This document shows, piece by piece, positions 2,544-30,891 of a stretch of 31,018 nt of DNA. How positions within the stretch are numbered: the first letter of the stretch is position 1; every line of letters starts with the position of its first letter. A program made the position numbers and the translations under genes. The DNA comes from a virus. The notes beneath the pieces were generated by a model that saw nothing but the letters and a program-made list of their open reading frames with translations, ran no database searches and was not told the DNA's origin. The stretch covers positions 1-31,018 of the IMG/VR virus record IMGVR_UViG_3300032675_000094. One strand, written 5' to 3'.

Positions 2544-3146
2544 TTATATATCAAACATTTTTAAATTTCCTTCTTTATCATATCCAAAATTTTTCCAATT
2601 AGTATCTATATAATGATTACCATAATAATATTCTGGTATTTTAGATATTTTAGTTAATATATTAATCCATCTATCAAATATTTCTTTTACTTCTATATTT
2701 TTAGAAATTAATTCATTAACTTCTTCTAATGAAGGGGTTTTTATTTTAATAAAGTTGAAAACTGGTAAATTACCTTTAACAATTTTTCTTAAAAAATTCA
2801 TAGTTAAATCATATGGATAGTTAGAATCATACTTACCAAAAAAATTTTTTTGTATAAAAAATTTTGTTAATATATCAAATTCTTTTTTAACCTTACCAAT
2901 ATCTAACCTTTCTTGAATTATTACCCCTTTTTTATAATTTACTTTATAAATTTTATCAAATAAATCTGGATTATGCTTACCAAATAACTCTTCAGATCTT
3001 ATAATATATGGGTAATGAAGACTAAATGTTTTAAACATATAGTTAGGGTTTGTATTACTTAAATATACAGTTTTAGTGCTACCAAAATTATTAAAAGGTT
3101 GTTTTTTAATTAACATCTCATTAAATTTTTTCCATTTATGTATCAT
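2544..3146 (-). CDS. Minimal protein-kinase-fold protein, paralogue A
   Basis: This 200-residue protein is a tandem paralogue of the gene immediately upstream. Kinase-like landmarks are visible. K39 in MFKTF resembles the ATP-binding lysine of the N-lobe. VIIQERLD resembles the hinge. YIDTNWKNFG has a catalytic-loop pattern with D181 and N186, and KMFDI has a metal-binding D199. The protein ends one residue after that aspartate, so there is no activation segment or C-lobe. The N-terminus MIHKWKKFNEM resembles a T4 capsid-targeting sequence. The start overlaps the upstream stop as ATGA, so translation is probably coupled. The substrate is unknown; it could be a phosphotransferase or a pseudo-enzyme. 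Confidence 0.55.
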   Translation of the reverse strand: MIHKWKKFNEMLIKKQPFNNFGSTKTVYLSNTNPNYMFKTFSLHYPYIIRSEELFGKHNPDLFDKIYKVNYKKGVIIQERLDIGKVKKEFDILTKFFIQKNFFGKYDSNYPYDLTMNFLRKIVKGNLPVFNFIKIKTPSLEEVNELISKNIEVKEIFDRWINILTKISKIPEYYYGNHYIDTNWKNFGYDKEGNLKMFDI

Positions 3147-3703
3147 ATATCTAATAATTTTAAATTTCCTTTTTTATCTTCGCCTATATTATTAGAATGA
3201 AAATCTAAATAATATTTTTTATATTTTTTCGGATCTATTTCTGATATTTTTTTAATAAAATTAAACCATTTATTAAATAAATTAAATTCTTTTTCTTTGA
3301 ATTTTTCTTTTATTATATCATAAGATAAATCTTTATAACTTACATAATAATATAAATTTGGATTTTTTATTAAAGATTTAATAATATTGAATACATCATT
3401 ATCATATCCTATTCTTTTAAGTTTATTTGTTAAGTAATCTAATTCTTTTTTAACTATATCTGTATTTAATTTTTCTTGAATCATTATACCTTTTTTGTAA
3501 TCTATTTTATAGATTTTAGCATAAATATCAGGATTATCATTTGAAAATTGTACTTCGAAATAAACTTTATCAACTTGATAAAGTTTAAATGTTTTGATAA
3601 CTATATCAGGATTAGATTTACTTGCATATACATTTTTGTATAATCCAGTGGTATTATACGGCTCTCTTGCTTCATTAAAACTTTTCCAATTATATACAAA
3701 CAT
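3143..3703 (-). CDS. Minimal protein-kinase-fold protein, paralogue B
   Basis: I choose the ATG at 3703 (186 residues) over one at 3745. The shorter form begins MFVYNWKSFNEA, matching the start of the paralogue downstream, and it no longer overlaps the nucleotidyltransferase gene. Landmarks are K37 in IVIKTF, the hinge-like GIMIQEKLN, the catalytic loop YLDFHSNNIG with D167 and N172, and the terminal KLLDI with D185. This loop is closer to the aminoglycoside-phosphotransferase/eukaryotic-like kinase pattern (D-x-H-x-x-N) than that of paralogue A. Like A, it stops directly after the DFG-equivalent aspartate. It is the third gene of a four-gene operon. FNE at residues 9-11 is a possible prohead-protease site. 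Confidence 0.55.
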   Translation of the reverse strand: MFVYNWKSFNEAREPYNTTGLYKNVYASKSNPDIVIKTFKLYQVDKVYFEVQFSNDNPDIYAKIYKIDYKKGIMIQEKLNTDIVKKELDYLTNKLKRIGYDNDVFNIIKSLIKNPNLYYYVSYKDLSYDIIKEKFKEKEFNLFNKWFNFIKKISEIDPKKYKKYYLDFHSNNIGEDKKGNLKLLDI

Positions 3704-4706: not shown

Positions 4707-5412
4707 TCACAATTTAAAATATTTTTTTATATAATCACAATTTTCATATTCTTCAAATTTCTCAAAATAATTAATAGAATCATAAATCAAATTTTTATCA
4801 AAAATCAATTTTTTATCATATATAGCGGTATGTAAAACTTTATAATATGTTAAATATAACAAAAGTTCTTGGCTATATGAATTATATATTTTTACTTTTT
4901 CTAAACCAAAATCTTTTCTAATTGAAATATTACATTCATTTAAAATTTTTTTTATAGTTTCTCTAGACATTTTTAATTCATTACTAATATCACGTGTAGT
5001 TTTCCCTTCTAAGTAAAGATTAGATACTAATTCATATTTTTTCTCCCTTTTTCTATTATTATTTTCTTTTAATTTATTTTTTGTTTTCTCACTTATTATA
5101 AGACCTAAATTATTTTCTGCTATTGGTCTTCCATTATAACCATTATTATATGAATTATAATAATTTATATAATATTGTTCTTTTAATAATACATTTGTTG
5201 AATCACATTCTTCTATCAATTTAAATATAAGATTTTCTTCTGAATATTTATTATAAGCATTTTGTATTTTTTTAGGATTTTTATTTTTTCTAAAATAACT
5301 TATATGGGATTTCCATCTAGCATATAACCCATATGGTCCAACCGCACTACCTATATAAACTTTACCATTATTATTCTTGAAAGTTTTTTAAATCATTAAA
5401 TGTATACTCCAT
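4707..5412 (-). pseudogene. GIY-YIG endonuclease gene, GIY motif deleted and frame broken
   Basis: The ATG at 5412 opens a frame reading MEYTFNDLKNFQE and then stops. In the next frame the gene continues as NNNGKVYIGSAVGPYGLYARW, the YIG half of a GIY-YIG domain, and stays open to 4707. The GIY strand that should precede the YIG segment is missing, so a short deletion of about 20-30 bp with a frameshift is the simplest reading. Downstream come the catalytic-domain end (LLKEQYYINYYNSYNNGYNG), a NUMOD-like GLIISEKTKNKLKE, a helix-turn-helix (GKTTRDISNELKMSRETIKK), and a tail almost identical to the neighbouring small protein. A TTG at 5219 could start a 170-residue fragment with only the C-terminal part. 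Nuclease activity is probably lost. Confidence 0.75.
4711..4754. repeat. 44-bp direct repeat, copy 2 (3' end of GIY-YIG remnant)
   Basis: This is the second identical copy of 4328-4371. It gives the endonuclease remnant the same C-terminal tail as its neighbour. Confidence 0.9.
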
Positions 5413-5430
5413 TTTTAATTGTTATTTTAA

Positions 5431-7303: not shown

Positions 7304-8692
7304 ATGAAAACATATACTGAAAAATTTATTGATAGTCATAAAATACTTAAAAAAGCTATAGTAGGTATAGAATTTGAGTTTTTTATGAAAGAATTATCTT
7401 ATTATAAAACTTTAGAGATACTTAATCAATATTTATCTCCTATAAAAGTTCATGGGTTTCGTGTTTATCATCCAGATTTTAAACCAGATAAGGATAATTT
7501 TATTCTTTCCCCAGACTTGAGCGGTGGAAATTCCCTCGTAGAACTAATAACATCTCCATTAGATTATTATAGTGCCAAATTCTATTTGGTTAAAATAGTA
7601 AAATTTATTCAAGATTATGGATATACAAATGAAAAATGTTCAGTCCATTTTAATATTTCCTTTGATAAGGATAAAGATATTGATTTAGATTTAAATGACT
7701 TAAATATGCTTAAATTAATTCTTGAAATTGATGAAGAAGAAATTTATAGATACTATCCAAGTAGAAAAGATAATGTATATGCTAAAAGTGTTAAAAGAAT
7801 GATTCCTTATAAAGAATATGACTTTAATAGTATATCAATTGATATAGTTAAAAATAATTTAAGATTACCTAACGATAAATATTATGGAATTAATTTTTTA
7901 AATATTAATAATGATAGAGAATCTCAAAGATTAGAGTTCAGATATATTGGAGGACAAGACTATGAGAAAAATGTGGGTAATCTATTATATTTTTTAGACA
8001 AGTTTATTTTAAATACTTTTTATTGCCTTAATAAGCCATTCACAGATACTAATATGCAAGATTTAGAGAATTATTTAGATAAAAATATAAGTTATTTTAA
8101 TACTTTTTCAAAATTTGATAATTTTATCGTGGAGTTTCCAGGTATAGCAATTCAAATTGACCAAATAAATGATTATGATGTTATTAATGCTTATTATCCT
8201 AAACTATATACAAAATTATATAATTTATTAGATTCTTGTCAAGATTTGAAAAATTGTATAATAAATTATGTTACAGAAACACAAAAAATTGAAATAATTG
8301 ATGCTACAATAAAATCTAATTTTAATATTAAAAATTATGACTTTATTAATTGTAATGTCCAAAATGGTATATTTGAAGAATGTGGATTTGTAAATTCAGA
8401 ACTTTATAACTCACAAGTTATAAAGTGTAGATTAGATGGAACTAAAATAACAGGTTCTAAACTATTAAATTGTCATATGGAATCTTATTTAGTTAAGGAT
8501 TCATTTTTTATGAATGGTTATATAAACTGTGAGATGGAAAATGGGGTGTTTCGCAGTGGAAAATTAGGTCCTTATGCTAGTATAAGTTCAACTACAAAAA
8601 TAGTATCTGATAAAGATAATTTCTTTGATACTAAGTTTGATGATAGTAGTTTAAAGAAAAAAGATATAGGAAATAAAAAACTCGGTTTATAA
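7304..8692 (+). CDS. Amidoligase-like protein with pentapeptide-repeat-like tail
   Basis: This protein has 462 residues. The N-terminal two-thirds match the layout of the COOH-NH2 ligase (Amidoligase_2, glutamine-synthetase/GCS fold) family. They carry VGIEFEFF at about 20-27, DLSGGNSLVELITSPLDYY at 71-89, CSVHFNISF at 112-120 and SQRLEFRYIGGQDY at about 207-220. The acidic and histidine residues in these blocks correspond to the metal/ATP and substrate sites of the fold. Family members form peptide-like amide bonds, and phage members are suggested to modify proteins or cell-wall peptides. From about residue 330 to 425 the sequence has a five-residue rhythm (DFINCNVQNGIFEECGFVNS), suggesting a right-handed beta-helix tail. 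The last codons and stop lie inside the terminator hairpin shared with the convergent gene. Confidence 0.65.
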   Translation: MKTYTEKFIDSHKILKKAIVGIEFEFFMKELSYYKTLEILNQYLSPIKVHGFRVYHPDFKPDKDNFILSPDLSGGNSLVELITSPLDYYSAKFYLVKIVKFIQDYGYTNEKCSVHFNISFDKDKDIDLDLNDLNMLKLILEIDEEEIYRYYPSRKDNVYAKSVKRMIPYKEYDFNSISIDIVKNNLRLPNDKYYGINFLNINNDRESQRLEFRYIGGQDYEKNVGNLLYFLDKFILNTFYCLNKPFTDTNMQDLENYLDKNISYFNTFSKFDNFIVEFPGIAIQIDQINDYDVINAYYPKLYTKLYNLLDSCQDLKNCIINYVTETQKIEIIDATIKSNFNIKNYDFINCNVQNGIFEECGFVNSELYNSQVIKCRLDGTKITGSKLLNCHMESYLVKDSFFMNGYINCEMENGVFRSGKLGPYASISSTTKIVSDKDNFFDTKFDDSSLKKKDIGNKKLGL

Positions 8693-14239: not shown

Positions 14240-14935
14240 ATGGTAATATACAAAGCAGAGTTTCCGAATAAAAAGGTTTATATTGGTAAAACTAAAAATT
14301 TTCAGATTAGAAAGACTAAACATTTTTATAGTATAAGATATGATAAAAAAACTAAAATGATAAAAGCTATTATCAAATATGGCTTTGAAAATATAATATG
14401 GGATATTATATTTGAGACAAATGATGAAAATATATTAAATCAGAAAGAAATTGAATTAATAAAAAAATATGATTCTATTATTAACGGTTATAATACATCT
14501 ATAGGCGGAGATGGTGGTGATACAATCTCACATAATGAAAATAGAAATGATATAATTAAAAAACAACTAAAAACAAAAGGTAAAAATATAGATGATTATA
14601 TCATAATAGATGAAGAATTAAAAAATAAAATTATTGAAGAATATACAATTAATTATTTAAGTATAAGAAAAATAGCAAATATTTATAATATAAATAAAAA
14701 AAGAATAAATAAAATTTTAATAAACAAAAATATAGAAATAAATTCTAAAAAAGCTAAAGAAACCAATTCAAAAAAATTATCAGTAGAACAAACTAAAAAA
14801 ATTATTCTTCTATATAAAGAAGGTTTATCTATTAATAAAATATCAAAAATAGAAAAATTAACAACAATGTTAATAAGTAGAGTACTACATGAACAAAAAA
14901 TAAGAATATCAAAAAGATTTTTAACAAATGAATAA
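14240..14935 (+). CDS. GIY-YIG family endonuclease
   Basis: This 231-residue protein has an N-terminal domain starting MVIYKAEFPNKKVYIGKTKN, where VIY...YIG fits the two strands of the GIY-YIG core. QIRKTKH may supply the usual Arg, and LNQKEIELIKKYDS the metal-binding Glu region; it ends GYNTSIGGDGGD. The C-terminus has two helix-turn-helix segments (SIRKIANIYNINKKRINKIL and SINKISKIEKLTTMLISRVL) for site recognition. This matches freestanding phage homing endonucleases of the Seg type. It overlaps the following ribbon-helix-helix gene by 8 bp, so the two are translationally linked. Confidence 0.82.
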   Translation: MVIYKAEFPNKKVYIGKTKNFQIRKTKHFYSIRYDKKTKMIKAIIKYGFENIIWDIIFETNDENILNQKEIELIKKYDSIINGYNTSIGGDGGDTISHNENRNDIIKKQLKTKGKNIDDYIIIDEELKNKIIEEYTINYLSIRKIANIYNINKKRINKILINKNIEINSKKAKETNSKKLSVEQTKKIILLYKEGLSINKISKIEKLTTMLISRVLHEQKIRISKRFLTNE

Positions 14936-15134
14936 AAAAGAAAAAATAACAGGTAATTTATCAATTAGAATTGATAAAAAATTATTAAATCAATATAAAT
15001 CAATATGTGATAAAAATGGTTTTGATATGTCAAAACGTTTAAGAAAGTTTATTGAAACAGAAATTATTTATGATAATTTTGAGTTGAACCTATTCTCTAA
15101 AATAGAGCTAAATAATGATACCAAAAAAATTTAA
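14928..15134 (+). CDS. Ribbon-helix-helix (CopG/Arc-like) DNA-binding protein
   Basis: This 68-residue protein has an N-terminal half (ITGNLSIRIDKKLLNQYKSI and then DMSKRLRKFIETEI) with the beta-strand, helix, turn, helix layout of the RHH fold; SIRID is the DNA-contacting strand. It is coupled to the GIY-YIG gene through an 8-bp overlap and may repress that unit. Its 3' end overlaps the convergent gene by 4 bp. Confidence 0.65.
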   Translation: MNKKEKITGNLSIRIDKKLLNQYKSICDKNGFDMSKRLRKFIETEIIYDNFELNLFSKIELNNDTKKI

Positions 15135-15514
15135 TGACTTATTGTCCATATATCATTAAAAAAATCTTCTGTATCAGTATATCTATTGTAGAGATTTTTA
15201 GAATGATACCCACCAACTATACTACCAGAAAGATCTGTATATGTCATTTTAGTTTTTTGTCTTGGTTTTAATCTTTTTAATTCTAAGAAAACTATCTTAA
15301 CTTGATAAGTGTCATCTTCATTTTTCTGAATAGAATCAACTTTTCTAGTTATCTTAAATTCTTCATTACCGATGATAAAATCGGAACCAATATCAGGTAT
15401 TTTTATTTCATTTTTTGAAACATATTCTAAATCTAATTCAAGGGATATAATAGTTATATCTCTATCAACTACTTTATCCCCGAATTTATTTATTTTGAAA
15501 ATTACTTTGTGCAT
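15131..15514 (-). CDS. Hypothetical beta-rich protein (127 aa)
   Basis: MHKVIFKINKFGDKVVDRDI begins a protein with alternating hydrophobic residues, GNEEFKITRKVDSIQ and TYQVKIVFLELKRLK, typical of a small beta-barrel or sheet. No family is recognised. It lies 3 bp after the bL12-like gene and is probably the last gene of the unit that begins with the PRPP synthetase gene. Confidence 0.6.
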   Translation of the reverse strand: MHKVIFKINKFGDKVVDRDITIISLELDLEYVSKNEIKIPDIGSDFIIGNEEFKITRKVDSIQKNEDDTYQVKIVFLELKRLKPRQKTKMTYTDLSGSIVGGYHSKNLYNRYTDTEDFFNDIWTISH

Positions 15515-15517
15515 TTA

Positions 15518-15919
15518 TTATTTTATTTGCTTAACTAACTCAATTAATCTATCCTCTGATAGAGCAATTAATATATCATCTAAAAAAATAGTTGAATTAA
15601 ACTCTCTTTTAAGTATCTCTACTAATTCCTGTTTATCATCTATTAACCCCAATTGAACTAATTTAAGTTGTCTTCTATAAGAAGAATCATTAAATGTCCA
15701 TTCTATACCTCTTACTTCGCCAAGTCTTTTTAAGAGTTCTTTTTCTTGTTCTAAAGTTAGATCTAAGGTAATTTGAGAAGGTCTGTTATTAACAGCTACT
15801 GATTCTAAAAAATCTTTTGATTCTTTTAATCCCCATCCTGTAAAGTCCTTTATTAGCTTAACCATTCTAAGTTTATCAGGTTCTTTACCAATTGATTTTA
15901 TTGTAAATGTTTTTTCCAT
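15518..15919 (-). CDS. Ribosomal protein bL12 C-terminal-domain-like protein
   Basis: Residues 1-75 of 133 match the bL12 C-terminal domain: FTIKSIGKEPDKLRMVKLIK is followed by DFTGWGLKESKDFLES (25-40). Compare the family pattern K-x-x-V-I-K-x-x-R-x-x-T-G-x-G-L-K-E-A-K-x-x-V-E. In ribosomes this domain recruits and activates translation GTPases (EF-Tu, EF-G, IF2). The N-terminal dimerisation domain and hinge that bind uL10 are absent. Instead there is a novel 55-residue C-terminus (YRRQLKLVQLGLIDDKQELV). It could act as a soluble decoy or adaptor for translation factors, or as a fold reused elsewhere. The neighbours are small phage genes and prs. The domain call is strong and the function is open. 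Confidence 0.72.
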   Translation of the reverse strand: MEKTFTIKSIGKEPDKLRMVKLIKDFTGWGLKESKDFLESVAVNNRPSQITLDLTLEQEKELLKRLGEVRGIEWTFNDSSYRRQLKLVQLGLIDDKQELVEILKREFNSTIFLDDILIALSEDRLIELVKQIK

Positions 15920-16400: not shown

Positions 16401-17333
16401 TTATACTAAATTTAATTCGTGAATACTAATATTTTTATGAAGTCTTTCAATTGCGTTAGAAATAAGGTCAGCACAAGAAATTACTACTAATTTTGGACAA
16501 AATGCCTGTTTATCATAAACATCACTTATCGTATCAGATACGATAATTTCTGTTAAAACTGATTTATTTATATTATCAATAGCAGGTCCGCTTAATATAC
16601 CATGTGTAGCTATCGCCCTAACTGTTTTTGCCCCTGAATTTTTTAATAATTCAGCTGCTTTACATAAAGTTCCTGCTGTATCACACATATCATCTACAAT
16701 AACAACATTTTTGTCTTTAACATCCCCAATTAATTCCATTGAATGGATTTCATTAGGTTTAATTCTTTTTTTGTTAATTACTGCAAATCCAGCGTTTGGA
16801 AATGCTTTTCCAAAATCAGTGTTCTTTTTCAGAGCACCATGATCGGGAGCACATATTACTATGTCTGATAGTCCTATATTTTTAATATACTCAGTAAATA
16901 TTTTATTTCCATTTAAGTGAATAACAGAAGTGTTATAAAACCCTTGAATAGATGAGCTGTGTAAATCAATAGTTATTAACCTATTCATACCTACTTTTTC
17001 TAAAACATCACTCATCATTTTAGCTCCGATTGAAGAGCGAATATGGTCTGTTTTATCTTGTCTAGAATATCCTTGAAAAGGGGCAACAAGTGTAAATGAT
17101 TTAACTCCTGCTCTTTTGGCAGCATCAATTACTAATAAAGTTTCTACAATTGAATCGGAACCTTTTGTACTTTGTACAAAAAATAATTCTTCATCTCTAA
17201 TGGACTCTGTAAATCTTGGTAAGATTTCACCATCAGCAAATTTTTCAATGCTTAATTCTCCATTATATAAATCGAGATTTTGCATAATTAAGTCAGATAA
17301 GTCTTGACTTGATGAACCTGAATAAATTTTCAT
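16401..17333 (-). CDS. prs: Ribose-phosphate pyrophosphokinase (PRPP synthetase)
   Basis: I choose the ATG at 17333 (MKIYSGSSSQDL, 310 residues; bacterial Prs is about 315); an upstream ATG at 17402 would run into the previous gene. Signatures are FADGEI, the catalytic flexible loop FQGYSRQDK, the metal-binding IDLHSSSIQGFY, and the PRPP loop VVIVDDMCDTAGT. The enzyme makes PRPP from ribose-5-phosphate and ATP, for nucleotide and NAD synthesis. A close homologue, Adps of the phage NAD-restoration pathway NARP1, pyrophosphorylates ADP-ribose instead and is often annotated as Prs, so substrate choice is uncertain. APDHGALKKN differs from the usual PD-x-G-G. It sits just after a MazG-like gene with its own terminator. 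Confidence 0.9.
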   Translation of the reverse strand: MKIYSGSSSQDLSDLIMQNLDLYNGELSIEKFADGEILPRFTESIRDEELFFVQSTKGSDSIVETLLVIDAAKRAGVKSFTLVAPFQGYSRQDKTDHIRSSIGAKMMSDVLEKVGMNRLITIDLHSSSIQGFYNTSVIHLNGNKIFTEYIKNIGLSDIVICAPDHGALKKNTDFGKAFPNAGFAVINKKRIKPNEIHSMELIGDVKDKNVVIVDDMCDTAGTLCKAAELLKNSGAKTVRAIATHGILSGPAIDNINKSVLTEIIVSDTISDVYDKQAFCPKLVVISCADLISNAIERLHKNISIHELNLV

Positions 17334-17348
17334 ATTTTTATATTTTTT

Positions 17349-17361
17349 TATTTCATATATC
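17349..17361 (-). promoter_or_regulatory. Putative promoter variant before prs
   Basis: On the minus strand this reads TTGATATATGAAA, a variant of the common motif, placed between the terminator of the MazG-like gene and the prs start. An inverted repeat TTTTCATAT/ATATGAAAA spans the prs start codon and the far side of this element. Confidence 0.4.
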
Positions 17362-17371
17362 AAATATATGA

Positions 17372-17409
17372 AAAATTCTTGATAAAAAAAATTATTTATC
17401 AAGAATTTT
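17372..17409 (-). terminator. Hairpin terminator at the end of the MazG-like gene
   Basis: Perfect 15-bp arms (17372-17386 and 17395-17409; AAAATTCTTGATAAA and its complement) enclose an 8-nt loop. On the minus strand the hairpin includes the last codons and stop, and is followed by TT and then the prs promoter region. Confidence 0.75.
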
Positions 17410-17856
17410 AGCTAAGTCAGCAGGAGAATAATTAATACATTTTAGTACTTTATTATCAATAGATCTATAAACCATCCATTTATCTCCAACTTTTTCTATA
17501 TGACTTTCTGTTCCATCTCTATCTAAATAAAATTGAACAGTTAATAATGCCTCTTCTTCAGAATTACATGCTTTACTCATATTTGAACGTTGGATCTCAT
17601 CAAACGCTTCGTCAAATATATTACCTAAACCAAACTCTAAAATAGAACCGTTTAATACAAAAAGTAAATCTCCAAGACCATCTAAGATGCCTACTAAATC
17701 ATTACTTTTTATACAATCTTTTATTTCATCTAATTCTTCTTGCATTAGATTAATACGTAATTCACACCTATCTTTTGAAGGTATTTGAGGAGTTTCTAAT
17801 ACAGGAGCTTTAAAAGTCTCGTGAAACTCTTTAACTTGTGTTAATGTTTTATTCAT
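17392..17856 (-). CDS. MazG/HisE-like nucleotide pyrophosphohydrolase
   Basis: This 154-residue protein has an N-terminal domain with the all-alpha NTP-pyrophosphatase signature. VKEFHETFKAP is followed by LRINLMQEELDEIKD (E40, E41, E44), then ILDGLGDLLFVLNG (D59, D63), and ends AFDEIQRSNMSK. The EExxE...ExxD-like acidic residues bind Mg. Family members hydrolyse (d)NTPs or phosphoribosyl-ATP to monophosphates, and phage versions are thought to tune nucleotide pools or lower (p)ppGpp. The C-terminal 50 residues (HIEKVGDKWMVYRSID) form a short extra strand-rich region. Adjacent prs suggests a joint role in nucleotide supply. Confidence 0.75.
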   Translation of the reverse strand: MNKTLTQVKEFHETFKAPVLETPQIPSKDRCELRINLMQEELDEIKDCIKSNDLVGILDGLGDLLFVLNGSILEFGLGNIFDEAFDEIQRSNMSKACNSEEEALLTVQFYLDRDGTESHIEKVGDKWMVYRSIDNKVLKCINYSPADLAKILDK

Positions 17857-23345: not shown

Positions 23346-24818
23346 TTATTGTAAAGTTAATATTTCTTTTGAAATAACAAAATTAGTTAATCTTGAAATA
23401 ATTTCATCTTTTCCTAAAATGAATATACAAGATTTAACATCTACTCCTTGTATACCAAAAAGTATAGTTTTTCTTAAAAATCCTAAAAAAGAATTTTTTA
23501 ATTCATTGATATTCATAAAATGAATGATTATATTTTCTAATTCTGATTTAGAATTCCAATCATATGATAATAAATGTTTTTCAAAACTTGTTAAAAGTTC
23601 TACATCTGAATCACTCAAATCTATTATATTTCCTCTATTGAAAATTTTATCTAATTCAGTTTTAATATCATGTCTAAAATGACATCTTTTCTTTACTTCC
23701 GTAAATAAAATATCTTTTTGTTCATCACTAAGATGAACAAATTTATCTCCAAATAAATTATCATTAGATATTTTATGTTGAATCCACTGACTATTAATCC
23801 ATTTAGCCTTATCAATATCAAATCTTGCGCCTGATTTGCTCACATGTCCTAATGAAAAACTTTCAATTAATTCATCCATAGTAAGAATATCTCTTTCATC
23901 CCCTGGATTCCAACCAATCAAAGATAGAGCATTGATTAGAACTTGTGGTTCAAATCCAAATTCTCTCCAACCTTTTTGGTAGTTTCCATTAGAATCTGTA
24001 TATCCAATTGCAGAAATCGGAATACCATATTTTGCTGATGTTCTTTTTGATAATTTACCTTTTCCATCAGGATTCATTATTAGAGGTAAATGTGCAAAAG
24101 TTGGAACATCCCAACCAAATGCTTGATACAAAAGTACATGCATTGGAGTAGAATTAATCCATTCTTGACCTCTAAGAACGTGAGTAACACTCATATCGTG
24201 ATCATCACATACATTACATAAGTGATATGAACCAATACCATTAGATTTTAATAAAACTTTATCATCTAATGTAGCGGTGTTAATAGTGATTTCACCTAAA
24301 ATAGCATCAGTAAAACTGACATCAACATTTTCGGGAGTTTTAAATCTTATTACATAATGAGCGCCACTATTTAATAGATTAGTTACTTCATCTTTAGATA
24401 AAGTAAGAGAGTTTCTCATGGTATTACGAGTAGTATAATCATACTTAAGACCTTTTGCTCTTAATGCTTCTCCTTCTTCTGGTGTGTCAAAGCTATAATA
24501 CGCCATCCCATTATCTAATAGATATTGTATTTTTTGAGAATAATCTCTTTCTGACTGTATGAATGAACCTACACTTGGATCTGGATTCCAATATGAATAA
24601 TCAGGAGTAATACCTAACCATTCAAGAGTTTCTTGAAAATGAGGTAAGAATTCTGGTGTACACCTTTCTCTATCAGTATCTTCTAAACGAACTAAAAACT
24701 TACCACCTAATTTCTTAGCTAAGAAATAGTTGTATAATAAAGTTCTTACATTACCTAAATGACAGAAGTTTGCTGTATTAGAAGGTGCTAAACGTGTTGT
24801 AATTGTTGAGTTAATCAT
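23346..24818 (-). CDS. gltX: Glutamyl-tRNA synthetase (Bacteroidota-type GluRS)
   Basis: This 490-residue class I synthetase attaches glutamate to tRNA. The HIGH region is RLAPSNTANFCHLGNVRT (9-26), where the family has PSPTG-x-LHIG-x-x-RT, so the signature is altered and one residue longer. The KMSKS-equivalent is GKLSKR (254-259). FLVRLEDTDRER and DDHDMSVTHVLRGQEWINS are also typical. The insert IGYTDSNGNYQKGWREFGF followed by ALSLIGWNPGDE, and SKSGARFDIDKAKW (327-340), are hallmarks I associate with Bacteroidota GluRS, so the gene was probably taken from such a host. The anticodon-binding C-terminus is present but diverged. It heads the minus-strand unit that continues to 22818. Confidence 0.93.
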   Translation of the reverse strand: MINSTITTRLAPSNTANFCHLGNVRTLLYNYFLAKKLGGKFLVRLEDTDRERCTPEFLPHFQETLEWLGITPDYSYWNPDPSVGSFIQSERDYSQKIQYLLDNGMAYYSFDTPEEGEALRAKGLKYDYTTRNTMRNSLTLSKDEVTNLLNSGAHYVIRFKTPENVDVSFTDAILGEITINTATLDDKVLLKSNGIGSYHLCNVCDDHDMSVTHVLRGQEWINSTPMHVLLYQAFGWDVPTFAHLPLIMNPDGKGKLSKRTSAKYGIPISAIGYTDSNGNYQKGWREFGFEPQVLINALSLIGWNPGDERDILTMDELIESFSLGHVSKSGARFDIDKAKWINSQWIQHKISNDNLFGDKFVHLSDEQKDILFTEVKKRCHFRHDIKTELDKIFNRGNIIDLSDSDVELLTSFEKHLLSYDWNSKSELENIIIHFMNINELKNSFLGFLRKTILFGIQGVDVKSCIFILGKDEIISRLTNFVISKEILTLQ

Positions 24819-24911: not shown

Positions 24912-26060
24912 ATGGAAAAAAAATTTATTTATACATTATCACATCCAATAACAGAAGAAATTAGATATATTGGAAAAACTAATAATATAGAAAAAAGATT
25001 AAGAAGTCACTTATCTAATCATCAATTATTAGATAAGACAAAGAAAAATAATTGGATTATCTCTTTATTAAGAGATAATCTAATACCTAAAATAGAAGTT
25101 TTGGATGAAACTACTGATAATAATATTAATGAATTAGAGATATTTTATATTTCTTTATTTAAATCTTGGGGATTTAGATTACTAAATATGACTGATGGTG
25201 GGGATGGTATAAGTTGGAAAGGTAAAAAACATTCAGAAGAATCTAAAATTAAAAATTTAGTAAATAGTCCTCATAGAAAATCAGTAGGTCAATATGATAT
25301 ATATGGTGATTTAATTAAAGAATATCATTCTATTAGAGAAGCAGCAAATGAAACTAATAGTGATAGATCACATATATCTAGATGTTGTAATAACAAAAAA
25401 TCATATTATACACATAATGGTTTTATTTGGAAATTTATAGAAAATATAAATGAGTATGGAGTAATAGAACAAAAAAAAGTTAATTTAATTAAGTATGATA
25501 AACCTAAAAAAGAAAAAATAGTTAAACCAATTATAGTAAAAGTTAAAAAAGAAAAAATTATTAAAGAAAAAATCATTAAACCAAAGGTAGAAAAAGTAGA
25601 TTTAATTAAATATGATAAACCAAAATTACAAAGAGCAAATATAACTAAAATTAAAGTTTTTACTTTAACAGGTGAGTTATTAGAAATATGTAATGGTTAT
25701 AGGGATATAGAAGAAAAATATGGATGTCATAGAGAATTAGTTAGTCGTTGTTGTAAAGAAAAAGGTTTTTACCAAACTAAAAATTTAACTTTTAGATATG
25801 AGAATGATGAGTTTGACTATGTTCCATATAAAAATTTTAGAAATAATAAAACCTATAAAATAGGTTTATATAATGAAGATGGTGAATTAATTCAATCGTT
25901 TAATTCATTAAAAGATGCTGTGGCTGATACTAAAATTGCTAAACAATACATTTCTAAAAATTGTAATGATAATTTAGAAGGGAATAATATAAAAATTTTT
26001 AATAGGAAAAAGGATTATTTTATTTTTAAATTTTTAGATAATCCATATTTAGTAAAATAA
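24912..26060 (+). CDS. GIY-YIG homing endonuclease with NUMOD repeats
   Basis: This 382-residue protein begins with a GIY-YIG domain: FIYTLSHPITEEIRYIGKTN (5-24), R28-R31, and the helix INELEIFYISLFKSWG, ending NMTDGGDGISW. A NUMOD3-like KGKKHSEESKIK follows. After that come three NUMOD1-like DNA-binding modules (QYDIYGDLIKEYHSIREAAN..., VFTLTGELLEICNGYRDIEE..., LYNEDGELIQSFNSLKDAVA...). The first two are joined by a Lys-rich linker with two copies of (N/D)LIKYDKPK. This is a complete, apparently intact freestanding homing endonuclease, inserted between gltX and the virion genes. Confidence 0.88.
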   Translation: MEKKFIYTLSHPITEEIRYIGKTNNIEKRLRSHLSNHQLLDKTKKNNWIISLLRDNLIPKIEVLDETTDNNINELEIFYISLFKSWGFRLLNMTDGGDGISWKGKKHSEESKIKNLVNSPHRKSVGQYDIYGDLIKEYHSIREAANETNSDRSHISRCCNNKKSYYTHNGFIWKFIENINEYGVIEQKKVNLIKYDKPKKEKIVKPIIVKVKKEKIIKEKIIKPKVEKVDLIKYDKPKLQRANITKIKVFTLTGELLEICNGYRDIEEKYGCHRELVSRCCKEKGFYQTKNLTFRYENDEFDYVPYKNFRNNKTYKIGLYNEDGELIQSFNSLKDAVADTKIAKQYISKNCNDNLEGNNIKIFNRKKDYFIFKFLDNPYLVK

Positions 26061-29955: not shown

Positions 29956-30891
29956 ATGACAAATTATTCAATAGCTAATTTTATACAAACAGGTTCAGAT
30001 GATAAAACTATTACATTAATTAATAGAGATAATACTATTAGAAACTCTTTTAATATAGGTTTTTATGTTAAATCAGTTGTAAATACTAATATTTTAATTG
30101 TATATTTAGTAAATAATCAGTTCAATTTACCTTTTAATTCACCTGGAGAAGCTAATATAGGACTAAGTAAGTTAATAACTCAAATTGAACAAATAAAAAA
30201 TAATTATAATAATAGTTTAATTGGTGCAACAGGCCCTCAAGGGGCAACTGGTTCTACTGGACATTATTCTGAATTTATTGGGACATTTGATAGTGTTTCA
30301 ACACTTTTATCATGGTATCCGATTGGACCTGCTGAACTTTATCATTGGGCATTTGCAAAAGATGATTCTGATCCGACAATTTTATGGGTCTATAGAGCAG
30401 ATGTAACAAAAGCATGGGTTGCAGAACAAATATCTCTACCAATAGGTCCAACTGGGCCTCAAGGTATTACAGGACCCCCTGGATCAATAACAACAAATAC
30501 AAACTTACAATTTAAGAATCTTGATTTTAATATATGGGAAGGTATAGATAATTCTGGTAACTATGGTATATCAAAAACAAGTTCTGACTTAGATAACTTA
30601 GCGGATATGCTTAAAATAAATAGAGCATCTGGTAAATTAAACCTTAGAACAGGGATTAATACCTCTATAGGGTATGCAACATTAGTTTTAGGAAAAATTA
30701 CAATTTCAAATACAAGTGTAATAAATTCTAGTTTAATATATTTAACAAGAGGAGTATTAAATTCTACAACAACAATAGGAAATTTAGGATATACTTATAG
30801 TATAGGTTCCTTTACAATTAATTCTTATAGAACAAATTTAACAATCGAAACGGGAGATTTATCTACAATAAACTATTGGATAATAAATTAA
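29956..30891 (+). CDS. Collagen-like tail fibre protein
   Basis: This 311-residue protein has two Gly-x-y blocks, GATGPQGATGSTG (about 95-107) and GPTGPQGITGPPGS (about 165-178). They flank a compact middle segment (FDSVSTLLSWYPIGPAELYH...) with the look of a carbohydrate-binding insert. Collagen triplets form trimeric shafts in phage fibres. The C-terminus (LNLRTGINTSIGYATLVLGK, then TTIGNLGYTYSIGSF) is beta-rich and probably forms the trimeric tip. It starts 2 bp after the previous stop and has no promoter of its own. Confidence 0.75.
   Translation: MTNYSIANFIQTGSDDKTITLINRDNTIRNSFNIGFYVKSVVNTNILIVYLVNNQFNLPFNSPGEANIGLSKLITQIEQIKNNYNNSLIGATGPQGATGSTGHYSEFIGTFDSVSTLLSWYPIGPAELYHWAFAKDDSDPTILWVYRADVTKAWVAEQISLPIGPTGPQGITGPPGSITTNTNLQFKNLDFNIWEGIDNSGNYGISKTSSDLDNLADMLKINRASGKLNLRTGINTSIGYATLVLGKITISNTSVINSSLIYLTRGVLNSTTTIGNLGYTYSIGSFTINSYRTNLTIETGDLSTINYWIIN

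Follow-up and report, generated by a model that had tools for sequence, protein, structure and literature searches.

The locus and its genes

The window (the whole 31,018-nucleotide stretch of viral DNA analysed here) carries on its minus strand an open reading frame of 133 aa, running from 15919 to 15518, for which the first-pass annotation gave no strand. The plus strand over the same positions is packed with stop codons, and with a simple model of base composition, at the window GC of 0.232, 133 codons would stay open by chance with P ~8e-6. The product, referred to below as the CTD-tail protein, combines a C-terminal domain (CTD) of the ribosomal stalk protein bL12 with a helical tail, and the relevant features are as follows (all on the minus strand).

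15518..15919, minus: whole gene, bL12 CTD plus helical tail, 133 aa (ORF, Pfam, AlphaFold model)
15686..15919, minus: bL12 C-terminal domain, residues 1-78 (PF00542 and fold match to 3j9y_7)
15788..15874, minus: GTPase-contact helices, residues 16-44 (six positions invariant in 14/14 members)
15521..15685, minus: tail of four helices, residues 79-133, conserved (R83 and G91 the same in 14/14 members, K86 in 13/14)
15131..15514, minus: downstream gene, 127 aa, beginning 3 nt past the CTD-tail stop codon
15922..16158, minus: upstream gene, 78 aa, stopping 2 nt ahead of the CTD-tail start codon
16401..17402, minus: ribose-phosphate pyrophosphokinase, in the same run as the CTD-tail gene
17392..17856, minus: MazG-like nucleotide pyrophosphohydrolase, in the same run
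23346..24818, minus: gltX, glutamate-tRNA ligase (context only)

The gene thus lies in a tight minus-strand run made up of the MazG-like hydrolase, the ribose-phosphate pyrophosphokinase, two short unknown genes, the CTD-tail gene itself and the 127-aa unknown gene; at E up to 0.01 the flanking 127-aa and 78-aa genes match no Pfam family. The pyrophosphokinase/MazG pair could mean a nucleotide or NAD metabolism block. The two genes of this pair overlap in the window (16401-17856), and their homologues in the phage genome LR745206 are ~2.6 kb apart.

An identical CTD-tail protein is encoded by two IMG/VR contigs, one of which, 45.7 kb long, contains the entire 31-kb window at 99.7-100% identity. 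Searches with tblastn (E up to 1e-3) matched at least 14 of the 33 window ORFs examined to LR745206, a phage genome of 634,780 bp, with identities of 58-68% for the pyrophosphokinase, 64% for a glycosyltransferase, 59% for MazG and 52% for GltX. The window is therefore a fragment of a relative of this huge phage.

A bL12 domain with no anchor ahead of it

That the gene encodes a bL12 CTD had been proposed from the sequence, and both profile searches and structure prediction bear this out. Specifically, PF00542 matches residues 7-41 of the protein alone with E 1.5e-5 and 25.6 bits, just under the cut-off of 25.9, and reaches 26.7 bits, above the cut-off, when the neighbours in the frame are included. 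TIGR00855 aligns to residues 7-69 at 22.2 bits, not reaching its full-length equivalog cut-off of 84.4. When a profile of eight family members was run against PDB sequences, the best 15 of 21 matches were all bL12 (E 2.3e-5 to 0.013). The AlphaFold model of the monomer, built with nine sequences (mean pLDDT 80.5, pTM 0.58), has the expected alpha/beta CTD fold in residues 3-77, in the order strand-helix-helix-strand-helix-strand, followed by four helices in residues 79-130.

Structural comparison does not by itself single out bL12. The model aligns to the E. coli bL12 CTD (3j9y_7) with Z 8.3, rmsd 2.2, 68 aligned residues and 29% identity, and to the best structure of the ClpS adaptor with Z 8.9, rmsd 2.7, 76 aligned residues and 5% identity; a Z difference under 1 is a tie. 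In Foldseek searches with the whole model no hit reached E 0.001, the best being 0.096 for the bL12 of T. maritima. At this level of structural Z it is the sequence (29% versus 5% identity) that decides for bL12 over ClpS, and the assignment leans on the sequence together with the Z of the structural aligner.

The likeness to bacterial bL12 (L7/L12) ends with the CTD, in which the fold and the 29% identity are accompanied by contact residues that are identical or conservatively replaced. Unlike bacterial bL12, the CTD-tail protein does not begin with the N-terminal domain (NTD) for dimerisation and uL10 binding, has no hinge, and it has an additional C-terminal tail of four helices. The absence of this anchoring half ahead of the CTD, also noted in the first-pass annotation, holds up: the first CTD strand begins at residue 3, and the profile of that domain, PF16320, has no match in the window protein or in any of three members scanned, while matching a full-length bL12 from the phage LR756501 at 6.5e-9 as a control. 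Nor is there a hinge in the model, where the last CTD strand ends at residue 77 and the next helix begins at 79. Restricting bL12 with a shortened linker has been reported to leave activity like that of bL12-depleted ribosomes (PMC4592705); by analogy, the hinge-free CTD-tail protein is unlikely to be a working copy of the stalk protein.

The tail defines a family

The 55-aa tail (residues 79-133) had been described as new. The length is correct, but the tail is not confined to this gene: it is conserved throughout a family of 14 distinct phage proteins that share the order CTD, then tail. The family is defined here by a CTD followed by a conserved tail with R..K, LG(I/L/V) and four predicted helices, and it counted 11 distinct members after scans of IMG/VR and 14 after scans through neighbouring genes.

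The window protein had no tblastn match at E up to 0.1 among 50,697 phage records. Searches with the same protein confined to single genomes recovered a bL12-CTD gene in LR745206 (E 0.068) and in LR756502 (E 7e-4), for which PF00542 scores 29.9 bits, above its cut-off, and 24.2 bits, below it, respectively; both proteins have the CTD-then-tail order. Across four members, tblastn identities to the window protein are 30-36% over 103-138 columns.

Conservation of the tail was assessed with leave-one-out profiles, in which each of the 11 tails ranked above all the background windows of related phages that received a score. The window tail is the weakest of the 11, with 13.4 bits and E 0.0053 against a best background score of 10.1 (1794 scored windows). 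In two close pairs dN/dS is low in both parts, at 0.12 and 0.18 for the CTD, and 0.14 and 0.26 for the tail. A scan with the tail only, based on six tails, recovered the five IMG/VR loci that had seeded it and nothing else, hence no new member and no tail without a CTD, a result of small reach; the set of 11 tails had no conserved stretch usable for such a scan. Nor did a further scan, which started from the window protein, L047 and L050, bring in another protein with both domains. One scan of bacterial genomes yielded 90 stretches with the pattern and none that was confirmed, which, with a single strict pattern, is weak evidence of absence.

The tail of one member (L021), modelled alone, reached a pLDDT of 89.4, and Foldseek found no PDB match for this model at E up to 10. 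A helical domain of 58 residues is a poor query, and the absence of a match does not show that the predicted fold is new. In another member (L023, positions 4995-5430, on a 385-kb contig), a TAA stop removes the last tail helix, and the frame beyond it still looks like the family.

The GTPase-contact surface

Six positions of the CTD, namely L17, V20, K21, K24, L31 and K35, are invariant in all 14 members, and all six lie within the two helices that serve bL12 in binding IF2, EF-Tu, EF-G and RF3, so that the surface for GTPase contact is kept. In the numbering of the structural alignment, K16 of the window protein corresponds to K65 of E. coli bL12, and the counterparts of the six positions are V66, I69, K70, R73, L80 and K84. 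Three of these (K70, L80, K84) are identical and three differ conservatively (V66L, I69V, R73K). A neighbouring position, G30, is conserved in 13/14 members, the variant being L231, which also differs at the adjacent acidic residue. The counterpart residues other than K84 reportedly belong to the factor-binding site as well (Helgstrand et al. 2007). K81 and K84 of bL12 lie on a factor-binding helix, and their mutation has been reported to impair subunit association (PMC9239087).

Since eight of the 14 members were retrieved with patterns that include part of this surface, some of the conservation might be expected from the search itself. Protein and profile searches had led to the members from LR745206 and LR756502, and three others (L221, L230 and L231) were retrieved via their neighbouring genes, with no CTD pattern, and then recognised with a family profile that does include the surface. 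These last three keep all six contact positions, which argues, at the level of sequence, that the conservation is more than a search artefact.

Neighbourhood and placement

Each of the ten other first-set loci has a gene for a related kinase upstream of the CTD-tail gene, on the same strand and within ~0.4 kb, overlapping it in four; in the two loci checked the kinase belongs to Pfam CoaE. A second conserved gene, of ~240 aa, follows in nine of the ten, and the tenth contig ends too early. A search based on the kinase gave 21 loci, four of them identical over the fetched stretch, leaving 18 distinct ones. The CTD-tail gene stands behind the kinase in 11 of these and is missing in seven, and is thus accessory. 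Eight of the 18 are previously known members or sources of the queries, and these account for 8 of the 11 loci with the gene; among the ten independent loci it is present in three and missing in seven. The four identical loci (L223, L224, L225 and L234) have a different gene of 109 aa behind the kinase (3142-3471).

The gene also sits in different places. On the 45.7-kb contig of the window the kinase is found at 2047-2658 without a CTD-tail gene behind it, and the sole family match is at 30015-30413, 27 kb away. In LR745206 other genes occupy the space between the pyrophosphokinase and the glycosyltransferase, and the CTD-tail gene is at 313 kb. Different genomic places combined with retention in the lineage point to a job of its own for the gene. 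It may be speculated that the nearby homing endonuclease gene (14240-14935) aided relocation.

Translation genes in the window and in related phages

The first-pass annotation took the presence of gltX in the window as a sign of a translation-takeover module, a proposal that comparison with two relatives does not support. The distance between gltX and the CTD-tail gene is ~7 kb in the window, ~82 kb in LR745206 and ~66 kb in LR756502, the last two being the huge phages with the best gltX matches; the pairing was rejected on this spacing. A search of the window for tRNA genes with ARAGORN gave none.

Related phages carry another translation gene. A match to PF00009, i.e. a GTPase of the elongation factor type, was present in each of the four phages above 634 kb that were searched, with lengths of 651-708 aa from the first ATG and mutual identities of 49-72%. 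The one from LR745206, the only one of the four scanned with NCBIfam, exceeds the EF-G equivalog cut-off (857.5 versus 659.4 bits). Some bL12-CTD protein was likewise found in each of these four phages: the CTD-tail form in LR745206 and LR756502, a full-length bL12 in LR756501, ~3 kb from the GTPase gene, and in LR756504 (L248, 1198-1710, minus strand) a CTD joined to a different C-terminal part, which scores 26 bits with the family profile (a PF00542 search of LR756504 gave nothing at E up to 1). The EF-G-like gene of these huge phages would encode a candidate partner that the first-pass annotation did not consider. No EF-type GTPase was found in seven partial contigs searched, the 45.7-kb contig of the window included, which may reflect their incompleteness, and none of 11 records searched for uL10, a set without LR745206 and LR756502, was above the cut-off (best 14.4 bits).

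Other arrangements of the domain were seen along the way. The bL12 of LR756501 (735 kb; L017, 1495-1866, minus strand, and also L217) has the N-terminal domain and is 41-52% identical to 80 listed bacterial bL12s, nearly all from Bacteroidota, and IMG/VR record 3300049793_000366 (L252, 1111-1764) encodes a protein of 217 aa with a bL12-CTD-like domain near its C-terminal end.

Relation to known phage proteins

The first-pass annotation noted that bL12 homologues occur in some viral genomes, and such domains are indeed in print (PMC6375957, PMC7162821). Mizuno et al. 2019 describe phage bL12 domains, sometimes spanning an entire protein and more commonly embedded in a larger one; one phage bL12 was detected by mass spectrometry in ribosomal fractions, and ribosomes with tagged bL12 could not be purified (PMC6375957). 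As far as the consulted part of that paper goes, its proteins resemble the present ones in being phage bL12 domains that keep the GTPase-contact residues, and differ in that we describe one conserved CTD-tail family in large phages. None of the phages in the compared part of its Table 1 is among the matches listed in four protein searches of the phage collection. Al-Shayeb et al. 2020 report rpL7/L12 together with elongation factors G, Tu and Ts in huge phages, and assign to the Mahaphage clade five genomes larger than 634 kb, for which Bacteroidetes are the predicted hosts (PMC7162821). The presence of L7/L12 and elongation factors in such phages is thus shared with that study; in the sections consulted, the domain make-up, the missing N-terminal half and the tail are not described. 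In a 2026 study of a jumbo cyanophage rich in ribosomal proteins, L7/L12 comes up, in the portion consulted, only as the stalk (PMC13157829). Several phage bL12-CTD proteins are also contained in BFVD. Therefore, phage bL12 CTDs and the L7/L12 of huge phages were already known, and it is the conserved CTD-tail family that looks new; it is not described in the titles and abstract openings surveyed, and an earlier mention elsewhere is possible.

Proposed function and alternatives

Our preferred reading, to which we give about even chances, is that of a phage-specialised stalk-CTD protein that likely binds translational GTPases, holds a second partner through its tail and tilts translation toward the phage. 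Specifically, the CTD retains the basic surface, formed by two helices, through which ribosomal bL12 binds these GTPases, and the conserved four-helix tail, joined directly and without a hinge, is present instead of the uL10-binding half. During infection the CTD would bind translational GTPases, either those of the host or the EF-G carried by related phages, the tail would tether the protein to its second partner, and elongation or the supply of GTPases would be tilted toward the phage. Binding of EF-G, EF-Tu or IF2, on or off the ribosome, is plausible because the contact surface is conserved; from this we infer the binding, and the tail's partner and the effect on translation would follow in the same conditional sense.

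A bolder version, which we consider unlikely, would make the protein of huge Bacteroidota phages either an off-ribosome GTPase hub, which captures the phage-encoded EF-G as well as host factors and is itself tethered by its tail to phage-specific or ribosome-bound partners, or a stalk decoy against defence nucleases that dock on the stalk. If true, it would mean viral use of the stalk CTD untied from the stalk itself. Ribosomal proteins encoded by phages are usually taken to stand in for those of the host, and a family that keeps the GTPase-catching half with another domain in place of the ribosome anchor predicts a different use, for which the EF-G-like gene of related phages would supply a concrete candidate partner.

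Against a role in translation it counts that the gene is accessory, that the seven partial contigs searched yielded no EF-type GTPase, and that phage bL12 domains exist in many, very varied proteins, differing in length and domain order, so that the domain may be a general interaction module. The CTD would then have been co-opted as a small stable domain that binds a phage protein, with no part in translation. Phage homologues with and without the domain have been reported (PMC6375957), and the constant neighbour in the other first-set loci is the CoaE-like kinase gene, not a translation gene. What speaks for a GTPase partner instead is that the invariant positions coincide with the GTPase site and include lysines exposed on the surface of bL12, and that they persist in the three members retrieved without the motif; we regard the general module as improbable, though it survives best of the separate explanations.

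A functional replacement of the stalk, in which the tail would attach to the uL10 of the host or to another site of the 50S subunit and phage CTDs would take the place of host bL12, perhaps with a circularly permuted NTD, has a small chance of being correct. Evidence for it comes from a profile of the bL12 NTD built from 80 bacterial (nearly all Bacteroidota) and four phage bL12s. The window tail scores 7.5 bits with it, near the top of the background, being beaten by two of 1311 scored (of 1650) background windows, these being overlapping neighbours. Of 220 C-termini, 184 were scored and none did better than the window tail; the score of the L021 tail is 6.1 bits. With HMMER, the part of the family profile at the end of the tail aligns to bL12 residues 9-27 at no more than 2.4 bits. 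The existence of a full-length bL12 in LR756501 is also consistent with such a replacement. On the other hand, nine of the ten other tails score within the background, a profile-profile comparison of tail and NTD (hhalign) gives a probability of 0.26% and E 0.23, and the tail is predicted as four helices and not as a two-helix hairpin, to which the missing hinge and the lack of PF16320 in the members scanned can be added. The NTD profile may be insensitive, as a possible divergent hairpin (L096) scores only -1.9 bits with it. The end of the tail does resemble the NTD hairpin, but a move of the bL12 NTD to the C-terminus by circular permutation is unsupported by the profile-profile comparison and by most of the other tails.

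Less probable again is a pure decoy, i.e. a soluble CTD that titrates host factors docking on the stalk, for instance CRISPR effector nucleases of the Cami1 type, and so shields phage translation. Cami1 was reportedly termed ribosomal-stalk-captured by Mogila in 2023. PDB entry 8phj, Cami1 with the 70S ribosome, includes a bL12 CTD chain, and the CTD-tail gene is present or absent and variably placed, as counter-defence genes often are, but no host defence system is known here, and a simple decoy needs no conserved tail. Finally, a ClpS-like N-degron adaptor that feeds proteins to Clp proteases would explain the shared fold and the marginally higher Z, and is very improbable given the 5% identity, a Pfam search (E up to 1) that lists no ClpS family and PDB sequence searches that return bL12 and not ClpS.

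Other genes of the window

Besides the endonuclease gene close to the CTD-tail gene, the window has a second homing endonuclease gene at 24912-26060, both being of the GIY-YIG type. At 29956-30891 a protein with the C-terminal domain of a K1 capsule-specific lyase is encoded (PF24146, E 1.7e-9). The product of 7304-8692 has a weak pentapeptide-repeat match (25 bits, under the cut-off of 38) and shares 55% identity, over 434 columns, with a protein of LR745206.
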